A stretch of DNA of 61,067 nucleotides from Verrucomicrobiota bacterium JB024. Its GTDB lineage: Bacteria > Verrucomicrobiota > Verrucomicrobiia > Opitutales > Cerasicoccaceae. The stretch spans positions 1-61,067 of the forward strand of contig JAUTCS010000114.1 of assembly GCA_030673825.1 (NCBI GenBank), read 5' to 3'. Both the position numbers and the translations under genes were made by a program. The notes below the pieces were generated by a model. It saw nothing but the letters and a program-made list of their open reading frames with translations, searched no databases and had not been told where the DNA came from. Positions within the stretch are counted from its first letter, which is position 1, and the number at the start of each line of letters is the position of its first letter. Below are positions 986-50,946 of this stretch, piece after piece.

Positions 986-1471
986 AGCTGGTCACTGAGC
1001 ACACGGAGGAGGCACAGAGGACACAGAGAATATACAGGTTAAACAACGAGGCGTTTGATCCCGTCTTTGAGAAGCTTGGTGCGGAAGTTGATGAGGAGAC
1101 CGACGTGCTTGTCCGCGAAGCGCATGTACGTCAGCAATTGGGCAGTATGGACCGGCAGGAGCGCATCGACGGATTTCAGTTCGACCACAACGGTATCTTC
1201 GACCAGCAGATCGATGCGGTAGCCTTTTTCAAGCTTCAGCCCCTTATAGGCGACCGGCATGTCAAGCTGGCGCTGGTACGGTATGCTGCGCAGGTCGAGT
1301 TCATGGCACAGACAAGCCTCATACGCGGATTCGAGCAGACCGGGCCCCATGGTCCGATGAACCTCAATGGCCGCGCCAACAATCGCTTGGGTCAGGTCAT
1401 CGTTCATCGCAGTAAGCCCGATCGTCTCAATCCTCTGTGCGCTCTGCGCCTCCTCTGTGTGCTCGGTGGCC
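986..1471. mobile_element. Inverted-repeat element enclosing a GxxExxY gene (candidate autonomous element)
   Basis: The left arm (986-1030) and right arm (1431-1471) are imperfect inverted repeats of about 40 bp. Reading inward from each end they give GGTCACTGAGCACACGG and GGCCACCGAGCACACAG, followed by GAGGAGGC and further CAGAG units. Between them lies only the GxxExxY gene (1039-1407). Other copies of the same arms (29-180, 4304-4518, 5585-5782, 48325-48505) have a non-coding spacer of roughly 70-125 bp. The layout resembles a small element with terminal inverted repeats and its own nuclease. No target-site duplication was recognised, so mobility is inference. Confidence 0.5.
1039..1407 (-). 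CDS. GxxExxY protein (PD-(D/E)XK nuclease-like)
   Basis: The family-defining motif is present as Gly23-x-x-Glu26-x-x-Tyr29 (GLLESAY) in a 122-residue protein. Asp66 followed by Glu76-Leu-Lys78 forms the D...ExK signature of PD-(D/E)XK nucleases. The biochemical role of the family is not established to my knowledge. I chose the ATG at 1407 because MNDDLTQAIVGAAIEVHR matches the usual family N-terminus. The longer reading frame to 1512 would translate the repeat arm into TEHTEEAQSAQ, which is repeat-encoded. There is no good Shine-Dalgarno just before 1407; the nearest AGAGGA, about 24 nt upstream, lies in the repeat arm. The gene sits wholly inside the inverted repeat and interrupts the catabolic gene run. 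Confidence 0.85.
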   Translation of the reverse strand: MNDDLTQAIVGAAIEVHRTMGPGLLESAYEACLCHELDLRSIPYQRQLDMPVAYKGLKLEKGYRIDLLVEDTVVVELKSVDALLPVHTAQLLTYMRFADKHVGLLINFRTKLLKDGIKRLVV

Positions 1472-4303: not shown

Positions 4304-4518
4304 AGCTGGTCACAGAGCTCACAGAGGAGGCACAGAGCGCACAGGGTTTTGTGCGAGATGCTCTGCTTCTACTCGTGGCCCGGCATCGTTCGAAAAAAAT
4401 ATTCTGTCTATAAATAGTTAATAAAACATACGAGTCGCAGAAAGGAACCCGGATCACGGTAAACTCATTATCCTCTTGTCTCTGTGCTCTCCGTGCCTTC
4501 TCTGTGCGCTCCGTGACC
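4304..4518. repeat. CACAGAG-family inverted-repeat element, copy 3
   Basis: The left arm (4304-4346) starts AGCTGGTCACAGAGCTCACA. The right arm (4471-4518) read in reverse starts GGTCACGGAGCGCACAGAG. The spacer of about 124 bp is AT-rich and non-coding. It fills almost all of the gap between the Ldh_2 and 2-hydroxyacid dehydrogenase genes. Confidence 0.8.
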
Positions 4519-19450: not shown

Positions 19451-20782
19451 TCACCCGGCGCGGGCCTGGATGTCCTCGTCGCCCGCGGAGGTGGCGGGGC
19501 CGGAGGTGGGCACCGCACCGTTCACGGGCGCTTGGGCGTCGTCGCCCCGCCTCTTTTCCCGCGAGAGGAAGGGCGAGCGGGTGGCCTTGAGGTCGGTCTT
19601 GGGGAAGCAGATGCGCCCCACCGCGGCGTCGAAGTCCTCCCCGCCCTTGAGGATGCCGACCTCCAGCCGCAGGTAGTAGAAAGGCACGTCGGCGGGGATG
19701 TCGTCGCGGTTGAGGCGCACGGCGTCCTTTTCGGTGGTGACGACGAGCTCCGCCCCGGCCTCGCGGGCCTGGCGGAAAAAGTGGTCCAGCTCGAAGGGGG
19801 TGAAGCGGTGGTGGTCGAGGAAGCGCTGGTTGTGCACAATGCTCGCGCCCAGCTGACGGATGAACGCCTCGAAGCTCTCCGGCACGGCAATCCCGCTAAA
19901 GGTAGCCACACGCACGCCCTTGAGGGACTTGAGTGAACGGCTCTGCTCGCCAAAGACCTCTTTCAGGTACTGCGGCTGGTGGCTGCACTCGATCAGGTCC
20001 ACGTCCGGCTTGTGCAGGCGGATGAGCTGCTCCAACTCAGGGTCGGGCTCGCCGTCGGACTTGGTCAAAAAGACGTAGCTGGCCCGGCGGATATGCGAGA
20101 CGGGCTCGCGCAGGATGCCGCGCGGGAGCATGCACTGGTTGCCGAAGGGGTTGCTCTTGTCCACCAGCAGGAGGTTGAGCTGGCCGCGCATAGGCAGGTA
20201 CTGGAAGCCGTCGTCGAGGATGAGCGTGTCGCAGCCGAACTTGCGGATCGCGTACTCCCCGGCCTTGACGCGGTTTTTATCCACCAGCACGACCACGCCC
20301 GGCAGGTTGCAGGCGAGCATGTAGGGCTCGTCCCCGGCCGCCCAGGAGTCCAGCAGCACGTCCTTGCCGTCGCTGACGACCTTGGGCGGGGGCGGCTCGT
20401 TATGCGTAAGCCAGCGCCAGAACTTCTGGTACTTGCGCTCGGGCTTGCTGCGGTTGCCGCGCGAGAGGATCGCCACCTTGCGCCCGCGCTCCTGTAACGA
20501 GCGGGCGAACTTCTCCACCACGGGAGTCTTGCCCGTGCCGCCGACGGTGAGATTGCCCACCACCACGACGAGGCAGCCCAACGGCTGGTCCCGGAAAATC
20601 CGCTGCCGGTAGAGCCATCCGCGCGTGTGCACGATCCCGCCGAACACCCACGAGAGCACCCGCAAAAACCCGCCGAACAGGGTTTCCGCCAGCCCGTGGC
20701 GACGGTCGTAGATGACGTCGATCGTGAATTGTTCGAGGTCATCCAAACGCCGCTGGATACGATTGCGAAGGCTCTCCCGCAT
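19451..20782 (-). CDS. lpxK: Tetraacyldisaccharide 4'-kinase
   Basis: LpxK phosphorylates the 4' position of the lipid A disaccharide at the inner membrane. The Walker A motif [11 protein letters not shown] (76-86) and downstream [19 protein letters not shown] are diagnostic. At 443 residues it is about 100 longer than typical; the last 40 or so residues are low-complexity ([19 protein letters not shown]). Its presence supports an LPS-bearing outer membrane. No other lpx gene is nearby. Confidence 0.9.
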
Positions 20783-20847
20783 GTATCTGTCCCATCCAAG
20801 GGGATTCCCCTACGAATAGCAAGCTCCGGCTGGAGCAGCATACATGG

Positions 20848-20940
20848 GACTCCGCCCCCAGGGCATAGCCCTGGACCCTCGATCCTTCGGATCGCAATGG
20901 GGCTCCGCCCCATCGGCGCCAGACAGGAGCCTGCCCCGGA
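20848..20940. repeat. Hairpin-chain repeat, copy A
   Basis: Consecutive perfect hairpins are visible: CAGGGC-ata-GCCCTG, GATCC-ttc-GGATC and TGGGGC-tcc-GCCCCA. They are followed by GGCGCCAGACAGGAGCC and the trailer TGCCCCGG. The same order of a GGGGC hairpin, a GCC-AGA-GGC hairpin and TGCCCCGG recurs at 53701-53789 and 60774-60916. No ORF is seen. Confidence 0.65.
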
Positions 20941-20965
20941 AACGGACAATCGTTCGAGGGTGGTA

Positions 20966-21652
20966 TTAAAAATGACCTTCACGCAAAAAGTGCAGCGTGT
21001 GGCGGATCGTGTCGGGGTGGCCGAGGATAAAGTAGTGGCTGGAAGCGACGGTGGTGAAATCCGCCATGCCTTCGGTCCGGGCGCTTTCGACGGCGACCTT
21101 GCCGTCGTGCGGACGGGAGAAGAGCGGGTTGAACCACGGGTCGTGAGAACGGGTCCCGGCAATCACCCCCACCCCGGCGGGCAAGGGGCCGAGGGCTTTC
21201 GGGACAGAGGCAGCGGAGTCGAGCCCGAGTTCGCCGCCCGCCGGGCCGAACATCCACCGGTACGGCCACCAGCTTTTTAAAAAGTGCGCGACCTCGCTGC
21301 CGTTGTTGGGCGGGGCGACCTGCACCGCGCGGGCGAAGTTCTCCGGCGGGGCGGTGCGCAGCAGCTCGCGCAGGACGATCCCGCCCATTGAGAACGTCAC
21401 GAAGTACAAGGGGCGGGTCGGGTCGGTGTTGACCCGCGCCAGTGCCGGAGCGACGTGCCCGGCCACCAATTCGCGGATCGGGTAGCGCGTCGAGGGATAG
21501 TGAATCGTCTCGACCGCGTAACCGGCGGCGTGCAGGGCACGGCCCATCTTGCCGGGGACGTGGGGGTTTGGGCCAATCCCGCCCAGTAGGACGACCAGCG
21601 GTGCGCCTTCGCGGGGGAGGCTGGCGTGGCGGATTCGTCGGGGGCCGATCAT
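20966..21652 (-). CDS. Alpha/beta-hydrolase, lipase-like
   Basis: The 228-residue protein has a nucleophile elbow at FSMGG (Ser88), preceded by a strand with LLGGIGPNP. A C-terminal SSHYFILGHP supplies a plausible catalytic His. This matches the short alpha/beta hydrolases annotated as lipases or esterases. The start ATG overlaps the stop of the upstream YiiX-type gene by 4 bp (ATGA), so the two are probably translationally coupled. The substrate is unknown; acyl esters are possible given the next gene. Confidence 0.75.
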   Translation of the reverse strand: MIGPRRIRHASLPREGAPLVVLLGGIGPNPHVPGKMGRALHAAGYAVETIHYPSTRYPIRELVAGHVAPALARVNTDPTRPLYFVTFSMGGIVLRELLRTAPPENFARAVQVAPPNNGSEVAHFLKSWWPYRWMFGPAGGELGLDSAASVPKALGPLPAGVGVIAGTRSHDPWFNPLFSRPHDGKVAVESARTEGMADFTTVASSHYFILGHPDTIRHTLHFLREGHF

Positions 21653-22452
21653 GACGCGCGGTTTTTCAGAGCAAAGCTGACCCGCCGCGCCCAGGCAAGG
21701 CTAACGGGCGCGGGACTGGGTGCGAACGGGCGGGAGGCGGAAATACCCGCTACCGACTGCCCCTCGGCGACGAACGCTTCACGTTCCTCCTCCGACACGG
21801 GACTCCAGGGCACGGGCGACGCGCCCAACTCGCCCTCGGCTATGGTGACGAAGCGCGGGTCCACGGCCTGGCTGGCGGGCGTGACCGTGCGTCGCCGCAG
21901 CGGGATGCGTCCGGCGAACCACCAGCGCCAGAAGCCCAGCGCGGGGTCCGGCTGCTCGGAGATGAGTTTCGAGAACCGCTCCACCCGCCCCGGCCCGAAG
22001 CCGAGTGCCTCGGCATAGACCGCGTGGACGAACTTCGAGCAGAACTGGCGGCGCGAGTCGTAGTTGAATCCAAGATCGTACCACGCGCCCAGCCGCCGGT
22101 CCGCCGCCGCCACGAGCTTGCCCTCCTGCTCCGGGGTGAGCCCGCCGCGCAAGCGCCGGATGGCGAACAGCCCCCGCTCGGAGCGGGCCAGGAAGCGGTC
22201 CAGCGGGGTCAGCCGGGCGCGGGGGATCGCACTCTCGGCCACCCACCAGCGCCCATCCTCGCAGTGATGCAACACGCCCACATGCGAAGTCCAGCTCCCC
22301 GTGGCGGCGGCCACCCGCCCGTAGAGAAAGCCGCCCACGCGGATGAAAATCACGTCCCCGGCCCGCAGTTCCAGCGGCCCACCCTTCGGAGCGGCGGGGA
22401 TGAGGTCGGTGGTGGAGTCGAAGATGTTGTCAAAGGTGCCTAGCGTATTCAT
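21649..22452 (-). CDS. YiiX/YebB-like permuted NlpC/P60 cysteine hydrolase
   Basis: The 267-residue product has the permuted papain-like layout: RAGDVIFIRV, then TSHVGVLHH (His57) and FCSKFVHAVYAEALG (Cys138). The His precedes the Cys, as in YiiX/YebB (peptidase C92). These enzymes are thought to act on amide or ester bonds in lipids or peptides. No signal peptide is seen. It is coupled by ATGA to the lipase-like gene. Confidence 0.75.
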   Translation of the reverse strand: MNTLGTFDNIFDSTTDLIPAAPKGGPLELRAGDVIFIRVGGFLYGRVAAATGSWTSHVGVLHHCEDGRWWVAESAIPRARLTPLDRFLARSERGLFAIRRLRGGLTPEQEGKLVAAADRRLGAWYDLGFNYDSRRQFCSKFVHAVYAEALGFGPGRVERFSKLISEQPDPALGFWRWWFAGRIPLRRRTVTPASQAVDPRFVTIAEGELGASPVPWSPVSEEEREAFVAEGQSVAGISASRPFAPSPAPVSLAWARRVSFALKNRAS

Positions 22453-22580
22453 AAGTATTTATATTAGTTTTTAATTTACAAGAAGTTTGATCAGCTCAAG
22501 AAGAGGCGTGAAAAAAAACTCAGCGGTTTCGAAAAAGAGGCCGACAGCCAGCCGCACGGATCGCCCGAGAGCTTACGCCC

Positions 22581-22616
22581 TGGCCATCCTCTGCGCCTTT
22601 GCGCCTCTGCGGTAAA
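22581..22616. repeat. Solo arm of a degenerate repeat element
   Basis: CCTCTGCGCCTTTGCGCCTC is followed by TGCGGTAAA. On the other strand this reads as CGCAGAGGCGCAAAGGCGCA, the same style as the CACAGAG and CACAAAG arms. No partner arm was found within the gap, so it is a decayed or solo copy. Confidence 0.5.
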
Positions 22617-22623
22617 TCCCTAC

Positions 22624-24930
22624 CTAGTCCTTGCTGTTCGCGAGTTCCTTCAGCGCCTTGATGTCGAGCTTGCCCGACCCAAGCGTGGGGATCTCGGGGA
22701 CCACGCGCACTTCGCGGGGGATCCAGAGGTTGGCCAGGCCGGCCTCGGCGAGCTTGCGGGCGAGCAGCTCACGGTCCACCGGCTGAGTGGCCACAAGGAC
22801 GAGCGCCTCGCCCTTGGCCGGGTCCTGCCGGGCGGAAACCGCCACGAGCGGGACTTCGCTCTCGTCCAAGCCGAGGGCCTTGGCCACGGCGGTCTCGACC
22901 GTGCCGTGGGGGACCATCTCGCCCCCGATCTTGGAAAAGCGGGAGATGCGCCCCTCGATGTAGAGGAAGCCGTCCGGGTCGAGCCGCCCGAGGTCGCCGG
23001 TGGTCAGCCAACCCTCACGCAGGACGGCAGCGGTCTTCTCCGGCTCGTCGAGGTAGCCCTCGAAAACATTCGGCCCCTTGAACTCGACGATCCCGGTTTG
23101 CGTCATGGGCTGGATCTCGTTGGTCTCGATGTTACGGACGCGGGCGGCCATGCCGGGGAAGAGTCGACCGATGGAGCCGCTACGCGTGCCGATGACGCAG
23201 TCGTCCGGGTTGTCCGAAAGGATGTCGGGCTCGTTCACGCCGACGACGGGGCTGGTCTCGGTCAGGCCGTAGCCTTCCAGGTAATAGCAGTCCGGGAAGC
23301 GTTCCTCCCAAGCCTGATGGAAGCCCTTGGGGGTCTTTTCGGCCCCGGCGATGGCGACCTTGAGCGAGGCCAGGTCGGCGGCATCCACCCGCCGCAGGTA
23401 GGGGCGGAAGAAGGTCGGCGTGCCCAGCAGGATACCGCACTTCTCCTCCTTGATGGCGCGGGCGGCCAGCTTGAAGTCCAGCGGCGTGGGCGTGTAAACC
23501 GTGCGCAGGCCGAACATGATCGGCGCCCACAGCGTGACCGTGAACCCGAAGCTGTGGAAGATGGGCAGGTTCGCCAGCATCGTCTCCTCCAGCGGGAAGG
23601 CCCGGCAGCGGGCGATCTGGAGGCAGTTGGAAATGATGTTGCGGTGGGACAGGACCACGCCCTTGGGCGCGCCGTCGCTGCCGCTGGTGAACAGGATCGC
23701 CGCCTCGGCACGGCCACCCTCGCGGGGGACGCCGAAGAGCTTGGCCAGCAGGTTCGCGGGCAGGAGTTTGATCGCCGCCAGCCGCAGGGCGATCCCGGCC
23801 TTGGACATGCCGGTGAGGGCGTCTTTGAGGTCGATCAGGCGATCCGTCCACGGAAACTCCGGGCACTTCTCGTCGATCTTTTCCTTGATCGGGCCGACGG
23901 TCAGAATGGTTTTGACGCCCGCCCGCTCGATGCAGGCCGTGACGGCGTCACGCCCGAGGGTAAAGTTCAGGTTGACCGGGGTTTTCCCGGCGAGGACGAC
24001 AGCGAGGTTACCCACCAGCCCGGCGATCCCCGGCGGCACAACGAGGCCGACACGCTTTTCCGGGCACTCCCGGCGCAACCGCTTGGCCAGCCCGAGGGCC
24101 AGCGCGAGCACGACCCCGCCCTTGAGGGCCTTGCGCCCGACGGCGCGGTCCACGACCAGCTCCTTGTCCGCGTGCTCCTTCAGGCCCAGCAGCATGCGCC
24201 AGCCGAGGTGCTCCCGAAGTTCGGGCTTCTGTTCATATGCCTCCACTCCAAGGTCGAGTACGGTCTGTCGGGCCTGGTCTGCTGTCATCGTGCGGGGATC
24301 GGTCGGTGTGCCCACCGTGATGTGGACGGGATAGGGGACTTTTCGGGGGAGTTTCCAGAAAAATCGCCCGCCTGCAAAGCTGAAAATCGACCCCCACAGG
24401 CCATTCAGGCTCACAGGGACAATGGGAGCCCCGCCCCGGCGGGCAATCAGCTCGAATCCGGCCTTGAAAGCGCCGGTGCGCCCGTCGCGGCAGAGTTTGC
24501 CCTCGGGGAAGATGCCCACGATCTCGCCCTGGCGCAGGCACTCGGCGGCGGTACGGATGGCTTCACGGGAGTGCTCGGGCGAGATCGGGATGACCCGCGC
24601 CCACCGCAGAAACGGCCCTACCATCGGCACGCGCTGGAGGTAGTCCGCGCTCAGGAAGCGGATGGGCCGGGGCGAAATCGCCGCCAGCAGCAGTGCGTCC
24701 ATGTAGGAGACGTGGTTGCACACCAGCAGCGCCCCGCCTTCGCGGGGCAGGTTTTCCAGGCCGCGCACGCGCAGCCGATACACCCGGCGCACGCCCCAGA
24801 GCAGCCCACGCCGGAACAGTCCCCCACCCCAGGCGCATGCCATCAGCGGCACCCAGACCAGGGCCAGTACAACGAGGGTCGCGATCAGCAGCCCCTCGGC
24901 CGGACGATTGATAACGGATAAGCATTCCAT
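22624..24930 (-). CDS. Acyltransferase/acyl-ACP synthetase fusion (Aas-like)
   Basis: Two domains are clear in this 768-residue protein. A membrane segment near residues 12-33 leads into a PlsC acyltransferase domain with NHVSYMD (His/Asp) and FPEGK, up to about residue 220. An AMP-binding ligase domain fills the rest, with TSGSDGAPKGV and YGLTETSP for adenylation and YIEGRISRFSK near the C-terminus. This is the acyltransferase-plus-ligase part of E. coli Aas, which re-acylates lysophosphatidylethanolamine, without an LplT-like transporter domain. Fatty-acid activation and phospholipid repair are the likely role. Confidence 0.85.
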   Translation of the reverse strand: MECLSVINRPAEGLLIATLVVLALVWVPLMACAWGGGLFRRGLLWGVRRVYRLRVRGLENLPREGGALLVCNHVSYMDALLLAAISPRPIRFLSADYLQRVPMVGPFLRWARVIPISPEHSREAIRTAAECLRQGEIVGIFPEGKLCRDGRTGAFKAGFELIARRGGAPIVPVSLNGLWGSIFSFAGGRFFWKLPRKVPYPVHITVGTPTDPRTMTADQARQTVLDLGVEAYEQKPELREHLGWRMLLGLKEHADKELVVDRAVGRKALKGGVVLALALGLAKRLRRECPEKRVGLVVPPGIAGLVGNLAVVLAGKTPVNLNFTLGRDAVTACIERAGVKTILTVGPIKEKIDEKCPEFPWTDRLIDLKDALTGMSKAGIALRLAAIKLLPANLLAKLFGVPREGGRAEAAILFTSGSDGAPKGVVLSHRNIISNCLQIARCRAFPLEETMLANLPIFHSFGFTVTLWAPIMFGLRTVYTPTPLDFKLAARAIKEEKCGILLGTPTFFRPYLRRVDAADLASLKVAIAGAEKTPKGFHQAWEERFPDCYYLEGYGLTETSPVVGVNEPDILSDNPDDCVIGTRSGSIGRLFPGMAARVRNIETNEIQPMTQTGIVEFKGPNVFEGYLDEPEKTAAVLREGWLTTGDLGRLDPDGFLYIEGRISRFSKIGGEMVPHGTVETAVAKALGLDESEVPLVAVSARQDPAKGEALVLVATQPVDRELLARKLAEAGLANLWIPREVRVVPEIPTLGSGKLDIKALKELANSKD

Positions 24931-25105
24931 GCCTCCCTACATTGCCCGAGCCATGCCAAGAGTGAAAAAGGCTCCCACGCATAAGCACACAAGACACTAA
25001 CCGACAATAACTTAACTCTTATCCAGCAATCGACGCCAAACAAAGAACCAGTCTCCAGCAAGACATAAAATGTCCTCAACCAGACATTAAACGCACGACC
25101 TTTTA

Positions 25106-25193
25106 TTTTAACCACGGATTTCACGGATGACACAGATATTTTTTAAAAGAGATATTTCCCTATCTGTGTCATCCGTGAAATCCGTGGTTAAAA
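25106..25193. repeat. Perfect 33-bp inverted repeat, CACGGAT variant
   Basis: The left arm (25106-25138) reads TTTTAACCACGGATTTCACG and continues GATGACACAGATA. The right arm (25161-25193) is its exact reverse complement. The 22-bp spacer is AT-rich. The arm is made of CACGGAT/CACAGAT units, like the CACAGAG family but with a different unit. It lies between the Aas-like and TPR genes and can form a long stable hairpin on either strand. Confidence 0.85.
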
Positions 25194-25230
25194 CTCCCCC
25201 CCGCTCCGGCGGGAAAGCCACCCCACAAGA

Positions 25231-25262
25231 CATTTCGCGTCCCTTCGCGTGGCTTCGCGGGA
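25231..25262. repeat. Solo arm, GCGAAG variant
   Basis: Here TTTCGCGTCCCTTCGCGTGG is followed by CTTCGCGGGA. It matches the right arm of the paired element at 50870-50946. No complementary left arm was seen in this gap, so it is a solo copy 37 bp from the perfect inverted repeat at 25106-25193. Confidence 0.55.
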
Positions 25263-25292
25263 AAAGTCTTCCCTTCCCTGCTGCGGTTCCCC

Positions 25293-26978
25293 TCAGGAAG
25301 CGGGCGAAGAGACACGCGCTAGGGCGAGCTCTTCGGGCAGGAGGTCGGCGGGGTTGACGCCGCGCAACAGGCGGACGGCATCGCTGGTGTAGCCGTTGGC
25401 ACGGAGGATGGCGGCATAGATCACGCGCCACTTCGCCGGCATCTCAAGCCAATTCACCTCCAGGGGCCGGAGGGTGTCGAGCGCCTGCTCGAATTCCCCC
25501 ATGCGGAACTCGGCCAAGGCGAGTGTCATATAGCGAGCCAGGTACGGCTTCGGGCTTTCGCGCACGACCTTTTGAGCGGTCTTGAGCGAGAGCTGGACCT
25601 GGTCGTCCAGCAGAAGATTGACGTAAGCCCAGTCGTTGAGGACGGAAAGGTTGTCCGGGTAGCTCTCGGCCATGAAGCGCAGGACCTTCTGCATGCCCGC
25701 CGTGTCGTGCTCGAGCTGGTAGAGTTTGAGCAACTGCTCGCAGGCGCGGCGCTTCTGGGCGGGAAACTCGGTCAGTCGCCAGAGGGCCTTGGCCGCTTCG
25801 GATTTGAAATCGAGCTGGAGGGCGTAATTGACGAGATACCAGAGCTCGTCCTGATCACGGGAAGCCTCCAGCACGGCACGGTCCCAGGTAATCTCGCCCT
25901 CGGCCTGTCGGCCCGTCTCAAAGTACACCCGCGAGAGAAATAGGTATTTTAAAAAATCGTCCACCGGGGCATTCGGACGCTGGATGACCTGCCCGATGAG
26001 GGACCACTGCCCGAGCTGGGCCATGGCGTCGAGCCGAACCAGAAAGAGGTCTTTGCGGGCGAAGGCCTCGTCCGCCGGAATGAGCTCCAGGGTCTGCTGG
26101 TAGCGGCCCTGCTGGTTGAGCCAGCGCCCAAGCCGGGCGAGGTCGAGCGGGTTGGTCAGGTCGAAGTAGCGCTTGGCCTTTTCGAGGTTCGAGGCGGCGT
26201 TGGCGGTGGAAAGTTGATAGCTCAGGCGTAGCGCGAGCAGGCGGTCCTCGCGCGTGGCCAGCGGATGCTCCTCCAGCATCCGGATGATCTGGAGACGGTC
26301 GCCATCGGTGTTTTCGGAAAAGTTGGCCAAGTTGCGCAACGAACGCAAACCGAGCTGGTCACGCTGACGGGCCAGGCGCCAGAGGTAGTCCATCCCCTCC
26401 TCGCGCAGGGCCGGATCGTCCGAGAGCTGAGTGAGCTGGACAAAAAAGAAGTGCGCCCGCTCATCGGCGGGTTCCTGGGCCAGCGCCTTGCGGGCCGAGA
26501 CCAGAGCTCCAGTCAGGTCCTGGTCGTGCAACTGCACCCGCCCGAGGTAATAATAGTACGCTGAGTCGGTCTGGCCGCGGGCCGCCATGGTCTCAAGCTG
26601 CTTGCGGGCGGTGTCGAAGTCCCCGGCCATCAGCGCGGTGGAAACCCAGTTGCCCAGGTCTGAATTGTCGTCGGAGAGCTCGAAAGTCTTTTCCCAGAAG
26701 GACTCGGCCTTGGCCGGGTCAATCTCACGGTATACCTGGGCCACTGTGCGCACCACGTCCGGGCTGAGCGGATCGGCCCCGTAGGCGCGGCGGGCCGCCT
26801 CCAGCGCCCCCTCGTAATCCCTCTGCCCGAGCAGCATGCGCGCCTGGGCCACTTCCTGCCGCGCCGTGTACTGGTGGTAGGCACGTAGCAGGGGACCGAC
26901 CGCCAACCCGGCAGCGACCGCCCCGAGGGCCAGCAGAACCAGGACCCAGGTGAAGCGTTTTTTGGATTCGGGGGTCAT
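25293..26978 (-). CDS. TPR-repeat membrane-anchored protein
   Basis: The 561-residue protein has a single N-terminal membrane helix (RFTWVLVLLALGAVAAGLAV, residues about 8-30). A long helical array of TPR-like units follows (ARMLLGQRDYEGALEAARRAYG, YYYLGRVQLHDQDL, LFLSRVYFETGRQAEG). It resembles the large periplasmic TPR proteins of bacteria with exosortase or exopolysaccharide systems. It probably acts as a protein-interaction scaffold outside the inner membrane. ATG at 26978 is chosen because it gives a short cytoplasmic N-terminus before the helix. Confidence 0.8.
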   Translation of the reverse strand: MTPESKKRFTWVLVLLALGAVAAGLAVGPLLRAYHQYTARQEVAQARMLLGQRDYEGALEAARRAYGADPLSPDVVRTVAQVYREIDPAKAESFWEKTFELSDDNSDLGNWVSTALMAGDFDTARKQLETMAARGQTDSAYYYYLGRVQLHDQDLTGALVSARKALAQEPADERAHFFFVQLTQLSDDPALREEGMDYLWRLARQRDQLGLRSLRNLANFSENTDGDRLQIIRMLEEHPLATREDRLLALRLSYQLSTANAASNLEKAKRYFDLTNPLDLARLGRWLNQQGRYQQTLELIPADEAFARKDLFLVRLDAMAQLGQWSLIGQVIQRPNAPVDDFLKYLFLSRVYFETGRQAEGEITWDRAVLEASRDQDELWYLVNYALQLDFKSEAAKALWRLTEFPAQKRRACEQLLKLYQLEHDTAGMQKVLRFMAESYPDNLSVLNDWAYVNLLLDDQVQLSLKTAQKVVRESPKPYLARYMTLALAEFRMGEFEQALDTLRPLEVNWLEMPAKWRVIYAAILRANGYTSDAVRLLRGVNPADLLPEELALARVSSPAS

Positions 26979-27218
26979 AGAGACGTGACGCCCACTCAAG
27001 GCCCTCCATCCGGCCTTGGCAACCGTCAACTGCGTTGCCTATCGACGGTAAACCTTTGTGATTAAACCGCCTTCGCCTTTCCGGCGGCGGAACCTGCCAC
27101 GAGAAATCCATCCTCACCCCGCAAAATCGTTTGCCATCACGCCCTTCCCCTGTTTCACAAAAATCATCCCGACGAACTCGCCCCTCGCCAAACAGAACAT
27201 AAAACTGCATCCCAACGC

Positions 27219-28223
27219 ATGTCCCGACCCGTCACCCTGTTCACCGGCCAATGGGCCGACCTCCCGCTAACCAAGCTCGCCAAGACCGCCAGCGACATGG
27301 GCTATAACGGCCTGGAGCTGGCCTGCTGGGGCGATCACTTCGACGTCTTCAAGGCGGCGAAGGATAAAAAGTACTGCGCCCAGAAGCGCGCCATGCTCAA
27401 GCGTAACAAGCTGGAGTGCCACGCCATCTCCAACCACCTCGCCGGGCAGCTCGTGTGCGACCTGAACGACGACGCCCGCTCCGACGGTTTCGCCCCGCCC
27501 AAGTGCGCCGGCAATGCCGAGAAAAAGCGCGAGTGGGCCGTCACCGCGATGAAAGCCACCGCCAAGGCCGCCAAAAACATGGGCGTGTCCGTGGTCAACG
27601 GCTTCGTCGGCTCGTCCATCTGGCACCTGCTGTACTCTTTTCCGCCCGTCACCCCGAGCATGATCGAGGAGGGCTACAAGTACTTCGCGCACATGTGGAA
27701 CCCGATCCTGGACGAGTTCGACAAGTGCAAGGTCAAGTTCGCCCTGGAGGTGCACCCGACCGAAATGGCCTTCGACATCGTCTCGGCCGAGCGCACCCTG
27801 GCCGCCCTCGGTAACCGCGAGACCTTCGGCTTTAACTACGACCCCTCGCACCTGGGCTATCAGGGCGTGGACTACGTGAAGTTCATCCGCCGCTTCTCCG
27901 ACCGCATCTACCACGTCCACATGAAGGATGCCTGGTGGGGCCACGGCGACGGCACCGTCGGCATCTTCGGCGGGCACACCGACTTCGGCGACCCGCGCCG
28001 GTACTGGGACTTCCGCTCCCTCGGCCACGGGGACATCAAGTTCGAGGACATCATCGTCGCGCTCAACGACATCAACTATCAGGGCCCGCTCTCGGTTGAG
28101 TGGGAAGACATCCGCATGGACCGCCTCCACGGCGCCAAGGAGTCCGGCGAGTTCGTCAAGCGCCTCGACTTCAAGCCCTCGGGCGTGGCCTTCGACGCGG
28201 CCTTCGACAGCAAGAACCGCTAA
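27219..28223 (+). CDS. Sugar phosphate isomerase/epimerase (AP-endonuclease-2-like TIM barrel)
   Basis: The 334-residue protein has the xylose-isomerase-like TIM barrel pattern: [12 protein letters not shown] early, [13 protein letters not shown] with the metal-binding Glu and His, [28 protein letters not shown] and [11 protein letters not shown]. These supply the Glu-Asp-His-Glu metal site expected of the family. It is followed, after an inverted-repeat element, by a Gfo/Idh/MocA oxidoreductase, a common pairing in inositol or unusual-sugar catabolism. Substrate unknown. Confidence 0.85.
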
Positions 28224-28244
28224 GGTTCTTTGATGCGATTTGGA

Positions 28245-28349
28245 TTAACCACAGAGGACACAGAGAGCACAGAGATGGATAAAGACGGGAGACGAGAGAT
28301 CGTTCAAATTTCCACCCCCCTCTGTGTCCTCTGTGCTCTCTGTGGTTAA
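28245..28349. repeat. CACAGAG-family inverted-repeat element, copy 5
   Basis: The left arm (28245-28275) reads TTAACCACAGAGGACACAGA and continues GAGCACAGAGA. The right arm (28321-28349) read in reverse is TTAACCACAGAGAGCACAGA plus GGACACAGA. The spacer is about 45 bp. The outer end TTAACCAC differs from the AGCTGGTCAC end of the copies near the uronate genes and matches the end of the CACGGAT element. Confidence 0.8.
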
Positions 28350-28398
28350 AATTCTTCTTTATTTCCCCACCACAAAAACATCCTAATTTACGATAAAA

Positions 28399-29481
28399 AT
28401 GCCTACACAAATTGGAATCATCGGTGCCGGCGGTATGCTGCAATACCATGCCGCGGGCTTTCGCGCCGCGGGCGCGGATATCGTCGCCATCGCCGACCTG
28501 AACGAAGCCGCCGCCAAAGCCGCCGCCGACAAGTGGGGCATCCCCGCCGCCTACGGCTCGCCCGAGGCCATGCTCGAAGCCTGCCCCGAGATCGAAGGCG
28601 TGGCCGTCATCGTGCCCAACAAGTTTCACGCCCCGCTGGCCATCCAACTGCTGGAGGCGGGCAAGCACGTCTTCTGCGAAAAGCCGCCCGCGCTCAATGC
28701 CGGGGAGGTCGAGCAGATGATAGCCGCCGCCGACAAGGCGGGCAAGCGTCTCATGTTCAACTTCAACAACCGCGCCCGGCCCGAGTCCTTCGCGCTGCGC
28801 GGGTACGTCGAGGACGGCACCGTGGGCCGCATCAACTCCGCCCAGGCCAAGTGGGTGCGCCGCACCGGTATCCCGGGCTTCGGCGGGTGGTTCACTCAGC
28901 GCGCCCTCTCCGGCGGCGGCCCGCTGATCGACCTGTTGCACATGATCGACCTGGCGCTGTACTTCATGGACTTCCCCGAGCCCGCCGTCGTGCTCGCCCG
29001 CACCTTTGACGACTTCATCAACGACAAGGGCTTCAAGGGGCCGTGGGGCCTCCCCGACCGCGAAGGCGTAGTCAACGACGTGGAGGCCGCCGCGCACGGC
29101 ATGGTCACCTTCAAGTCCGGCCAGGTGCTCACGCTCCAAGTCTCGTGGGCGGAGATGGTCAAGCGCGAGGAGGTCTCGGTCAATTTCCAGGGCTCCAAGG
29201 CCGGCGGCAAGATCGAGCGGCTCTTCGGCGTAGACGGGGTGGACGAAACCTCCATCGACACCTGCGAACTCTACGTGCAGGAAAACGGCAACAGCGTCAA
29301 CCGCACCATCGTCACCCCGGTGTGCGAAGACATGGGCCGCATCCGCTCGGCGCAGAACTTCGTCCTCGCCATCGAGGGCAAGGAAAAGCCGATCAACACC
29401 CCGGACCAGGCGCTCAAGCTGATGAAGATCATCGACGCCGTTTACGCCTCCGCCCAATCCGGCAAGGCCGTCGAACTGTAA
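28399..29481 (+). CDS. Gfo/Idh/MocA-family oxidoreductase
   Basis: The 360-residue protein opens with the NAD(P) motif GIIGAGGMLQYHAAGF, has the Gfo/Idh/MocA CEKPPAL motif (EKP with its conserved Lys), and a C-terminal alpha/beta domain with GGPLIDLLHMIDLALYF. It is expected to oxidise or reduce a sugar or inositol derivative. It is downstream of the sugar isomerase gene, and a strong rho-independent terminator lies 59 bp after its stop codon. Confidence 0.85.
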   Translation: MPTQIGIIGAGGMLQYHAAGFRAAGADIVAIADLNEAAAKAAADKWGIPAAYGSPEAMLEACPEIEGVAVIVPNKFHAPLAIQLLEAGKHVFCEKPPALNAGEVEQMIAAADKAGKRLMFNFNNRARPESFALRGYVEDGTVGRINSAQAKWVRRTGIPGFGGWFTQRALSGGGPLIDLLHMIDLALYFMDFPEPAVVLARTFDDFINDKGFKGPWGLPDREGVVNDVEAAAHGMVTFKSGQVLTLQVSWAEMVKREEVSVNFQGSKAGGKIERLFGVDGVDETSIDTCELYVQENGNSVNRTIVTPVCEDMGRIRSAQNFVLAIEGKEKPINTPDQALKLMKIIDAVYASAQSGKAVEL

Positions 29482-29540
29482 ACCGGATATCGCGCTCTGG
29501 CGCGACGACCGTTTTTTTTAAAATTATTTAACCTTCCGAG

Positions 29541-29568
29541 ACTCCCGGCCTGCGCCGGGAGTTTTTTT
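29541..29568 (+). terminator. Rho-independent terminator after the Gfo/Idh/MocA gene
   Basis: ACTCCCGGC (29541-29549) and GCCGGGAGT (29554-29562) form a perfect 9-bp GC-rich stem with loop CTGC, followed by a T run. Confidence 0.85.
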
Positions 29569-29684
29569 ATGCCTTATCCGCAGGCGGAGGCATTTTCCCA
29601 CCAAACCGTGACAGGCACGCCGTTTGCGCTGGTTTGTCGTGCGCACGGCATGACGGCACAGCGCAGAGGCTTTTGGGGGTCACC

Positions 29685-29712
29685 TTGACAGCTTCCTAAC
29701 CATGGCTATAAT
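29685..29712 (+). promoter_or_regulatory. Consensus sigma-70 promoter of the YqjD-like operon
   Basis: TTGACA (29685-29690) and TATAAT (29707-29712) are both perfect consensus hexamers with a 16-bp spacer. Expected transcription start is near 29719-29721. This leaves a leader of about 180 nt before the DUF883 gene at 29901. I saw no comparably consensus promoter elsewhere in the window. The rest of the 29482-29900 gap holds the upstream terminator, a short ORF and no other recognisable feature. Confidence 0.75.
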
Positions 29713-29720
29713 AGAGTGCA

Positions 29721-29786
29721 ATGACTGAACGCCAGACGTCAACCGGCTCACTTTATCGCCATCACGCGGGGCTCACGACCCCGTAG
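29721..29786 (+). other. 21-codon ORF at the predicted transcription start
   Basis: ATG at 29721, seven or eight bases after the TATAAT box, opens MTERQTSTGSLYRHHAGLTT plus one Pro before TAG at 29784. It would be nearly leaderless. It could be a leader peptide for the operon or chance; there is no ribosome binding site and no known homology. Confidence 0.2.
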
Positions 29787-29900
29787 CCGGTACGGTTGTC
29801 CTCTGCCTCCGCGGCACACGCCACACCCTCACTATGCTCATGGCGTGCGCCCGCGTCTCACTCTCACGTACGCTAACTCAAACTAGAAACGGACATCACT

Positions 29901-30230
29901 ATGCCGACCAAAACCGCCACCAAAGATTCTGATCTCGCCGCCGACCGCGACAAGCTGGTCGCCGACCTCAAGATACTGATGGAAGACGCCAAGACCCTCA
30001 CCTCCGACGCGGCCGAGACCTCGCACGAGGTTTTTTCCGAAAAGGCCGCGCAGGTCCAGGCCCAGCTCAAGGAAGGGCTCGAAAAGCTGAAAGCCCACGG
30101 CCAGACCGCCTGCGAAAAGGGCAAGGAAACGGCCGAAACCGTGGAAAAGCTGATCAAGGATAACCCGTGGAAATCGCTCGGCATCGCCCTGCTCGCCGGG
30201 GTCATCGTCGACCGGCTGATGCGCGACTAA
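29901..30230 (+). CDS. DUF883/YqjD (ElaB)-like membrane-anchored stress protein
   Basis: The 109-residue protein is a charged helix (DSDLAADRDKLVADLKILME) with a C-terminal membrane anchor (NPWKSLGIALLAGVIVDRLM), the ElaB/YqjD/DUF883 layout. In E. coli YqjD anchors ribosomes to the inner membrane in stationary phase. It is the first of three compact genes (YqjD, YqjE, YqjK-like) and sits behind a consensus promoter with a long leader. Confidence 0.85.
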   Translation: MPTKTATKDSDLAADRDKLVADLKILMEDAKTLTSDAAETSHEVFSEKAAQVQAQLKEGLEKLKAHGQTACEKGKETAETVEKLIKDNPWKSLGIALLAGVIVDRLMRD

Positions 30231-44987: not shown

Positions 44988-45133
44988 TAACCACAAAGGC
45001 GCAAAGACACAAAGAGGGAATGAGGACGAGCGACTTACCCGCCTGCCTCCGATCGCTTCTTTCACCATGAAAACCACCACAGACACTTCCCGCTCAGAAG
45101 GCCTATCCTTTGTGTCTTTGTGCCTTTGTGGTA
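44988..45133. repeat. CACAAAG-variant inverted-repeat element
   Basis: The left arm (44988-45017) reads TAACCACAAAGGCGCAAAGA and CACAAAGAGG. The right arm (45107-45133) read in reverse is TACCACAAAGGCACAAAGAC plus ACAAAGG. The spacer is about 89 bp. The unit is CACAAAG rather than CACAGAG, but the arm architecture is the same. It lies between tyrA and aroA. Confidence 0.8.
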
Positions 45134-48324: not shown

Positions 48325-48505
48325 GCCGGTCACAGAGCACACAGAGGAGGCACAGAGAGCACTGAGAAACATTCATTTATCCAACCGGTGCTGGCCTTCC
48401 TCTGACCATGATCAAAGCGAGCATCTCTCGAGAACTTAAAAACATGTTTTTTCATCAGTTAGGCTCTGTGCTCTCCGTGCCTCCTCTGTGTGCTCTGTGA
48501 CCAGC
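48325..48505. repeat. CACAGAG-family inverted-repeat element, copy 7
   Basis: The left arm (48325-48367) begins AGCCGGTCACAGAGCACACA. The right arm (48461-48505) read in reverse begins GCTGGTCACAGAGCACACAG. Spacer about 93 bp, non-coding. It occupies most of the gap between plsC and the STAS gene. Its arms resemble those of the GxxExxY element more than the CACAAAG or CACGGAT variants do. Confidence 0.8.
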
Positions 48506-50869: not shown

Positions 50870-50946
50870 CCCGCGAAGGAACGCGAAGGGACGCGAAGAA
50901 GAATGCATTCTTTTCAACTTCGCGTTTCTTCGCGTGCCTTCGCGGG
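50870..50946. repeat. GCGAAG-variant inverted-repeat element
   Basis: The left arm (50870-50900) reads CCCGCGAAGGAACGCGAAGG and GACGCGAAGAA. The right arm (50918-50946) read in reverse is CCCGCGAAGGCACGCGAAGA plus AACGCGAAG. The spacer is 17 bp. It is the same short-period design as the CACAGAG elements with a GC-richer unit. A matching solo arm lies at 25231-25262. Confidence 0.8.

Follow-up and report, generated by a model that had tools for sequence, protein, structure and literature searches.

A perfect hairpin in Verrucomicrobiota bacterium JB024 carries the arms of a one-gene GxxExxY nuclease element

The hairpin at 25106-25193 and its copies in the genome

The window, i.e. the whole stretch of 61,067 nucleotides analysed here (contig JAUTCS010000114.1 of Verrucomicrobiota bacterium JB024), contains an 88-bp hairpin that is bordered by two minus-strand ORFs (22624-24930 and 25293-27029). 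Its parts, and an unpaired arm of another type that lies 40 bp away, are as follows:

25106-25138, plus strand: left arm of the hairpin (TTTTAAC, then units at 25113-25119, 25122-25128 and 25131-25137)
25139-25160, no strand: AT-rich loop of 22 bp
25161-25193, minus strand: right arm, the exact reverse complement of the left arm (units at 25162-25168, 25171-25177 and 25180-25186)
25233-25263, minus strand: CGCGAAG right arm with 10-bp spacing (TTTCGCG, CTTCGCG, CTTCGCG, then GGGAA); no left partner was seen nearby on reading the sequence

The hairpin arms are 33 nt each, 22 nt apart and 100% complementary, which confirms the perfect 33-bp inverted repeat with a 22-bp spacer reported in the preliminary description. 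Inward from the outer end, TTTTAAC, each arm has three 7-bp units at 9-bp spacing (CACGGAT TT CACGGAT GA CACAGAT); the build from CACGGAT units that had been described holds for the first and second units, the third being CACAGAT. When ≤ 2 mismatches were allowed, the double-unit pattern had four matches in the window (shuffled mean 0.54; four reached in 0 of 100 shuffles). The hairpin RNA is predicted to fold with -54.7 kcal/mol (z -15.1), a value equalled in 0 of 200 shuffles. Reading of the sequence revealed no T-run directly after the stem on either strand: the plus strand goes on CTCCCCCC, and the minus strand has GTTAAAATAAAAGG-type A-rich sequence, i.e. the hairpin lacks the immediate T-run of an intrinsic terminator. 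Likewise, Rfam gave no match at gathering score in window positions 20000-30000.

To find other copies, we searched the whole genome (4.6 Mb, 163 contigs) with CACGGATNNCACGGAT at ≤ 1 mismatch. This yielded 53 + 49 matches, as compared with 0 + 1 for a reversed-pattern control, and many of these 102 half-sites form inverted pairs. Exact CACGGAT half-sites were present in 29 of the 132 relatives covered, own genome counted. A lone terminator-like hairpin, the alternative that the preliminary description had reserved for the case of no other copy, or a chance inverted repeat would agree with the strong stem and its intergenic position; against 102 half-sites and a full-length alignment of 16 short hairpins it is extremely improbable, and the genome-wide copies and the missing T-run led us to reject it.

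Two other units were also abundant, namely CACAGAG with 9-bp spacing (79 + 91 matches; control 1 + 0) and CGCGAAG with 10-bp spacing (109 + 110; control 4 + 1). A script paired 53 elements (17 CACGGAT, 17 CACAGAG, 16 CGCGAAG and 3 CACAAAG) in 60 regions plus the CACGGAT, PF13366 and Y1 loci, which cover part of all half-site matches; the paired elements of both families bear out the earlier view that the hairpin follows the CACAGAG-family design with another unit. Elements can be nested, e.g. a CACGGAT hairpin within a CGCGAAG element (L046). By simple ORF calling, 37 of 48 elements lay between genes, whereas elements placed at random hit an ORF in 84% of cases; the neighbour genes showed every relative orientation. 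Where 40-400 bp separate the arms of gene-less elements, the interiors seem, by eye, to be mutually unrelated. In two CGCGAAG elements (L089 and L094) the interior carries a further repeat-like word, GTCATCCTGAGCGAG-type near GTCGAAGGATC.

The 16 short CACGGAT hairpins align end to end, and their outer stem is near-invariant except for the 2-bp linker that follows the first unit. This outer linker varies among copies, yet pairs inside the individual copy: its position 1 was GC in four, GU in four, UA in four, AU in two, CG in one and unpaired in one, and position 2 was paired in 11 of 16. The linker covariation score (0.085 versus 0.047 shuffled; 0/500) and the number of cells with both sides changed (15 versus 8.3; 1/500) exceeded the shuffles, while pairs with two-sided change (4 versus 4.5) and pair types (13 versus 12.1) showed no excess. 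Within-copy matching was confined to this linker in CACGGAT elements (0.676 within versus 0.322 between, p 0.001); it recurred in the outer linker of CGCGAAG elements (0.771 versus 0.646, p 0.0055) and was not seen in that of CACAGAG elements (p 0.45). Whole-arm identity was 0.840 within and 0.831 between elements (p 0.27), and the general arm-to-arm conversion once suggested for the perfect pairing finds no support here. For the inner unit, likeness within an element (0.765) was even below that between elements (0.820); two of its positions are mismatched in 12 of 16 copies, and the tip of the hairpin is therefore asymmetric. CACAGAT stands opposite CTCGGAT in 7 of the 16 short hairpins and opposite CGCGGAT in one. 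The window copy, with its 22-bp loop and identical arms, is exceptional: arms were identical in 1 of 17 paired CACGGAT elements, this one alone, so a perfect stem is not a family trait.

GxxExxY nuclease genes between inverted unit arrays

The other elements of the window, one of which encloses a gene, and a complete element on contig 132 are listed here:

32-171, no strand: CACAGAG element, gene-less
993-1468, no strand: complete GxxExxY element, inverted CACAGAG-type arrays (spacing 9-11-9) around one gene
1039-1407, minus strand: GxxExxY (PDDEXK_3) nuclease gene within the 993-1468 element (PF13366 match at 1048-1398, 8e-43)
4311-4515, no strand: CACAGAG element, gene-less; CACGAAG-type arms at the same site in congener G002
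28245-28349, no strand: CACAGAG hairpin, gene-less; intergenic space of 172 bp here, 39 bp in congener G001
44990-45132, no strand: CACAAAG element (8-bp spacing), gene-less; 236 bp here, 32 bp in G002
48325-48505, no strand: CACAGAG element, gene-less; 212 bp here, 23 bp in G001
50870-50946, no strand: CGCGAAG hairpin, gene-less
Contig 132, 1653-2105: complete CACGGAT-armed GxxExxY element, spacing 9

The PF13366 profile scored seven genes of the genome over its curated cut-off; one of the seven was scanned further and matched TIGR04256 (1e-42) and PF13366 (1e-41). Inspection by eye found inverted unit arrays around all seven, and the automatic array caller recovered six, missing the CACGGAG case. 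Their arms are CACAGAG 9-11-9, CACAGAG 9, CGCAAAG 8, CGCGAAG 10, CACGGAG 9, CACAAAG 8 and CACGGAT 9. A complete element measures ~450 bp, the nuclease gene takes up nearly its whole interior, and in three elements the start codon comes immediately past the last unit.

With the two arms of the contig-132 element, the window arm reached scores of 25 and 19; no arm of the other six elements gave it more than 15. The inner units of the contig-132 element are CGCGGAT on one side and CACAGAT on the other, which resembles most short hairpins. Gene-less hairpins share their arms with a complete element of this genome, the relationship by which a MITE is recognized; that the hairpin has its arms in common with a GxxExxY nuclease element had been overlooked in the preliminary description. 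A Y1/RAYT transposase was considered as owner and rejected: the genome has four Y1_Tnp genes, and no arrays of the four exact units scanned occurred in their 1.9-3.3 kb loci. In one relative (G005, locus L252), a complete CACGGAT hairpin comes immediately after a nuclease gene with an internal stop; no left array was called there.

All seven proteins have kept D72, (E/D)82-x-K84 and Q96xxxY100, and we take this D, (E/D)xK, QxxxY pattern to represent the motif residues of Cas4/lambda-exonuclease-like nucleases. The model of the contig-92 protein (mean pLDDT 92.5, pTM 0.86) was nearest to Cas4 SSO0001 (4ic1; Z 9.5, rmsd 4.5, 102 residues) among the folds on the VIA list, followed by a Spirosoma nuclease-fold protein (Z 8.1). 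Foldseek gave no match to the model at E 0.001 (best E 3.1e-3), and sequence searches retrieved no solved relative at E 0.1. Predicted fold and motif pattern make it likely that GxxExxY proteins are PD-(D/E)XK nucleases of the Cas4/lambda-exonuclease-like kind; they differ from Cas4-like nucleases in that their gene stands alone between repeat arms.

A scan of genome contigs provided at least 80 named GxxExxY loci, and 54 relatives added 28 loci to our own (family present in 29 of the 54 genomes, own counted). The loci come from Bacteroidota, Acidobacteriota, Chloroflexota, Cyanobacteriota, Planctomycetota, Pseudomonadota and one archaeal record; individual host names may be wrong, because many records are metagenome bins. 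We defined a GxxExxY element as a gene flanked on each side by an inward array that comprises two or more units spaced 8-12 bp. Among the matches listed, 81 of 115 loci had inward arrays on both sides, 104 had such an array on one side or both, and in 54 the arrays of both sides numbered at least three units; 11 had no array. In contrast, outward arrays at the same 115 loci numbered 10, 25 and 6 in these three classes, and 99 control windows further out gave 0, 5 and 0. A unit-independent inverted-flank score was ≥ 16 in 61 of 77 named loci (among the matches listed), as against 1/385 shuffled, 35/385 swapped between loci and 22/77 in direct orientation; the direct and outward matches arise in part because hairpins serve as arms in a few loci, e.g. 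L121. Where both arms had the same number of units (at least three), the spacing vector was identical in the two arms of 45 of 49 elements, as against a mean of 15.2 and a maximum of 24 in shuffles. With a single GxxExxY query, 8 matches were obtained among 72,556 plasmid records and none among 50,697 phage records; one of three plasmid-borne genes had arms and two did not.

The same layout was found for genes of S23 (PF05635) four-helix-bundle proteins, a sequence-unrelated family with three members in this genome (L042, L043 and L044 on contigs 10, 139 and 70). In a set of 32, these three plus the 29 best-scoring genes of relatives (L279-L307), 27 had inverted flanks (swapped 0/160, shuffled 0/160, direct 2/32). 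Their arm units are mostly 7-bp words that differ from the GxxExxY ones, e.g. AGGCTGT and GGCAGAA; L281 is an S23 gene with CACAAAG units. As S23 genes share the layout, it can do without a GxxExxY nuclease. This would agree with another enzyme that moves hairpins and arms while the GxxExxY gene rides along, as would the seven gene-bearing elements versus dozens of gene-less ones. We hold such an arrangement to be rather improbable in view of the four Y1 transposase-like genes without arrays and of the nuclease clades, which arm type tracks as described below.

Unit kind and spacing go with the nuclease kind

We mapped arm types on a protein tree of 115 rows and 123 columns, in which 53 of 112 inner branches are weak and 104 of the 115 loci are labelled. 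Unit position 2 followed the tree (22 changes versus 33.0 shuffled), and so did position 5 (17 versus 30.1), position 7 (4 versus 5.9) and the spacing class (35 versus 61.8), each value being matched in 0 of 300 shuffles; position 4 was without tree signal (33 versus 34.9; 49/300). A clade of 24 rows (support 98) has mainly 8-bp spacing; its hosts comprise Cyanobacteriota, Bacteroidota, Acidobacteriota, Nitrospirota and also relatives of JB024. Among the best 30 relatives of the contig-132 nuclease, 26 had an array, and T-ending units were in the majority in 25 and tied in one; these are not 26 independent cases, because several represent the same site in different species. In the broad set, units end in G in 98 of the 104 labelled loci, and of the six T-ending ones L132 and L179 fall outside the contig-132 nuclease group. 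Unit kind and spacing go with the kind of nuclease. Descent by itself would likewise hold arms and gene together; recognition by the nuclease is supported because the link spans phyla and holds where types at the same site differ.

Across relatives, 62 genomes had a GxxExxY match, and 21 of them contained at least two CACGGAT half-sites, as did 0 of the 70 genomes that had no match (p 1.5e-8); for genomes of at least 3 Mb, the figures were 20/52 versus 0/7 (p 0.08). When the nuclease was required to match, half-sites were present in 12 of 21 genomes with and 17 of 111 without it (p 1.2e-4), the matching sets having been compiled by hand at a 45% identity cut-off of our choice. The dependence of half-sites on a matching nuclease is moderate. 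Two genomes, G016 and G093, contain 118 and 98 exact half-sites respectively and lack a full-length gene closely related to that of the contig-132 nuclease; a fragment of such a gene (residues 1-73, 47%) is kept in G016. These two genomes, the moderate genome-level association and the weak result for large genomes count against a simple mobile story.

Congener sites and possible mobility

The region around 25106-25193 is syntenic in the congeners G001, G002 and G003. Between matched flanks, the hairpin site measures 180 bp in G001 versus 378 bp here and 241 bp in G002 versus 434 bp here, and the corresponding stretch of G003 contains no array. Absence from all three congeners fits the recent origin that had been offered as one explanation of the perfect pairing. 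The element is lacking in congeners here and at four further sites that were compared. The window elements at 28245 and 48325 are absent from G001 and that at 44990 from G002, and one G002 element is absent from this genome. Sites that are empty in congeners thus carry elements.

Other sites are occupied in both species by different types. At 993-1468, between flanks 89 and 91% identical, G002 has CACGAAG/CACAAAG arms and a diverged gene in place of our CACAGAG element, and at 4311-4515 the two elements again differ in type. Two 9-11-9 subfamilies each occur in both genomes, our own and G002. Both flanks are shared by 60 locus pairs, in all of which gene orientation is the same and arm type is mostly kept; many elements are old and have not left their site, an observation that suits a settled gene and a mobile one equally. 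In different genomes, the gatA|gatB gap harbours CACAGAG, CGCAGAG, CACGGAG or CACGAAT elements with proteins down to 30% identity. The five loci in the gap preceding gatB (L032, L185, L186, L197 and L277) belong to different clades in the same orientation; a GatB-like frame is present in four, and the gene on the other side is presumably gatA, judged by its position. Such gaps are either preferred sites or places where element types replace one another.

Several of these results would also be expected if the hairpins were host signals, i.e. transcript ends, RNA stability elements or sites of DNA binding, and the GxxExxY genes host genes so regulated: elements are mostly intergenic, the stem is very stable, the outer linker pairs covary, and certain GxxExxY genes have a conserved place in an operon with the same neighbours, as at gatA|gatB. 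At least five unit families in a single genome that are gained and lost between congeners, neighbour genes in all relative orientations and a stem that has no T-run on either strand render this quite unlikely. We also considered homing, in which a gene-less hairpin is the target, the GxxExxY gene homes into loops of its own type, and hairpins spread by other means. Complete and gene-less forms sharing arms around different interiors, different nuclease clades at one site in the same orientation, and the other arm type at the 993-1468 site in G002, as arm-mediated replacement would give, all speak for it. At several congener sites, however, the arms are missing as well as the gene, so the arms must move too, and we regard homing as unlikely.

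In the reading that we consider probable, the 25106-25193 hairpin is a copy, MITE-like and non-autonomous, of a one-gene GxxExxY element and is acted on by the nuclease of that element. The full element consists of three short degenerate units pointing inward, one GxxExxY gene and the same units inverted. The nuclease would recognize unit arrays of its own type and cut at or near the arms; cutting would copy or move its own element and, in trans, the gene-less hairpins, which may be internal-deletion copies that lost the interior and kept the arms. While the arms belong to the GxxExxY genes, mobilization through the nuclease is what we infer. The MITE-like reading is preferred because arrays flank all seven own genes and 81 of 115 loci versus 0 of 99 controls, the window arm scores highest against the contig-132 arms, units and spacing follow the protein tree with T-ending units in the contig-132 relatives, spacing vectors agree between arms, congener sites are empty, elements are mostly intergenic, nuclease motifs are kept in seven proteins, and the fold is nearest to Cas4.

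Several observations count against it. Global alignments of filled with empty sites gave no base-exact empty site among the congeners, which are too diverged for their alignments to fix the element boundaries. Beyond the stem, nothing resembling a target-site duplication was enriched next to the elements. The one candidate, TTAA, occurs at offset 1 in 20 of 52 own elements (10.5 expected); it lies within the stem and is self-complementary. The half-sites in 17 of 111 genomes without a close nuclease, unit position 4 off the tree, the 11 of 115 loci without an array and the two of three plasmid-borne genes without arms weigh in the same direction.

The elements bear likenesses to known systems. 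In REPIN-RAYT systems, a low-copy Y1 tyrosine transposase gene is flanked by palindromes that are dispersed in intergenic space. Here too, short intergenic palindromes are scattered and a low-copy nuclease-type gene carries the same palindromes, but the gene encodes a PD-(D/E)XK nuclease rather than a Y1 tyrosine transposase, the arms are three 7-bp units at 8-12 bp spacing, and many unit families coexist in one genome. By analogy, GxxExxY elements may work like a REPIN-RAYT or MITE system, although the defining REPIN-RAYT feature, a Y1 gene with palindromes, is absent from the four Y1 loci scanned for the four exact units. MITEs of DDE insertion sequences have inverted ends but no gene, and they accompany complete copies, which are rarer. 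Both forms exist here; in contrast to DDE-derived MITEs, there is no DDE gene, the arms are unit arrays, and no target duplication is seen outside the stem. The intervening sequences of 23S rRNA with S23/IVP (PF05635) similarly hold one small ORF in a fold-back, but have another protein and mostly other units. The consulted part of the Geobacter bemidjiensis study describes multicopy nucleotide sequences, i.e. intergenic palindromic and direct-repeat families (PMC2996986), and, in that part, differs in naming no nuclease or owner; GxxExxY/PF13366 appears in the consulted section of PMC8934634 with no link to repeats. The open-access literature searched contained no description of GxxExxY elements, with repeat words only in unrelated papers, and no function for the nuclease family.

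A broader proposal, which we regard as possible and advance tentatively, is that GxxExxY elements constitute a new superfamily of ~450-bp autonomous elements moved by a lone Cas4-like nuclease that reads 7-bp arrays. Unit and spacing would co-diverge with the nuclease, gene-less hairpins would be widespread unnamed repeats, S23 elements would form a sister class, and types would swap at the same site. Because the arm-and-gene layout recurs in very different bacteria, a common unexplained genome repeat may have an owner; one is proposed here for intergenic repeats of several families, present in dozens of copies in this genome, together with a role for an orphan nuclease family that is common. 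Should the nuclease read the arrays, the paired natural variation of unit, spacing and protein is a data set for a DNA-recognition code.

The arms also leave traces among predicted proteins. In the window ORFs 25108-25431 and 28171-29457, they translate into repeat-like peptides (TDFTDDTD and NHREHRGHRG), which annotators should regard as spurious and which are easily mistaken for proteins.
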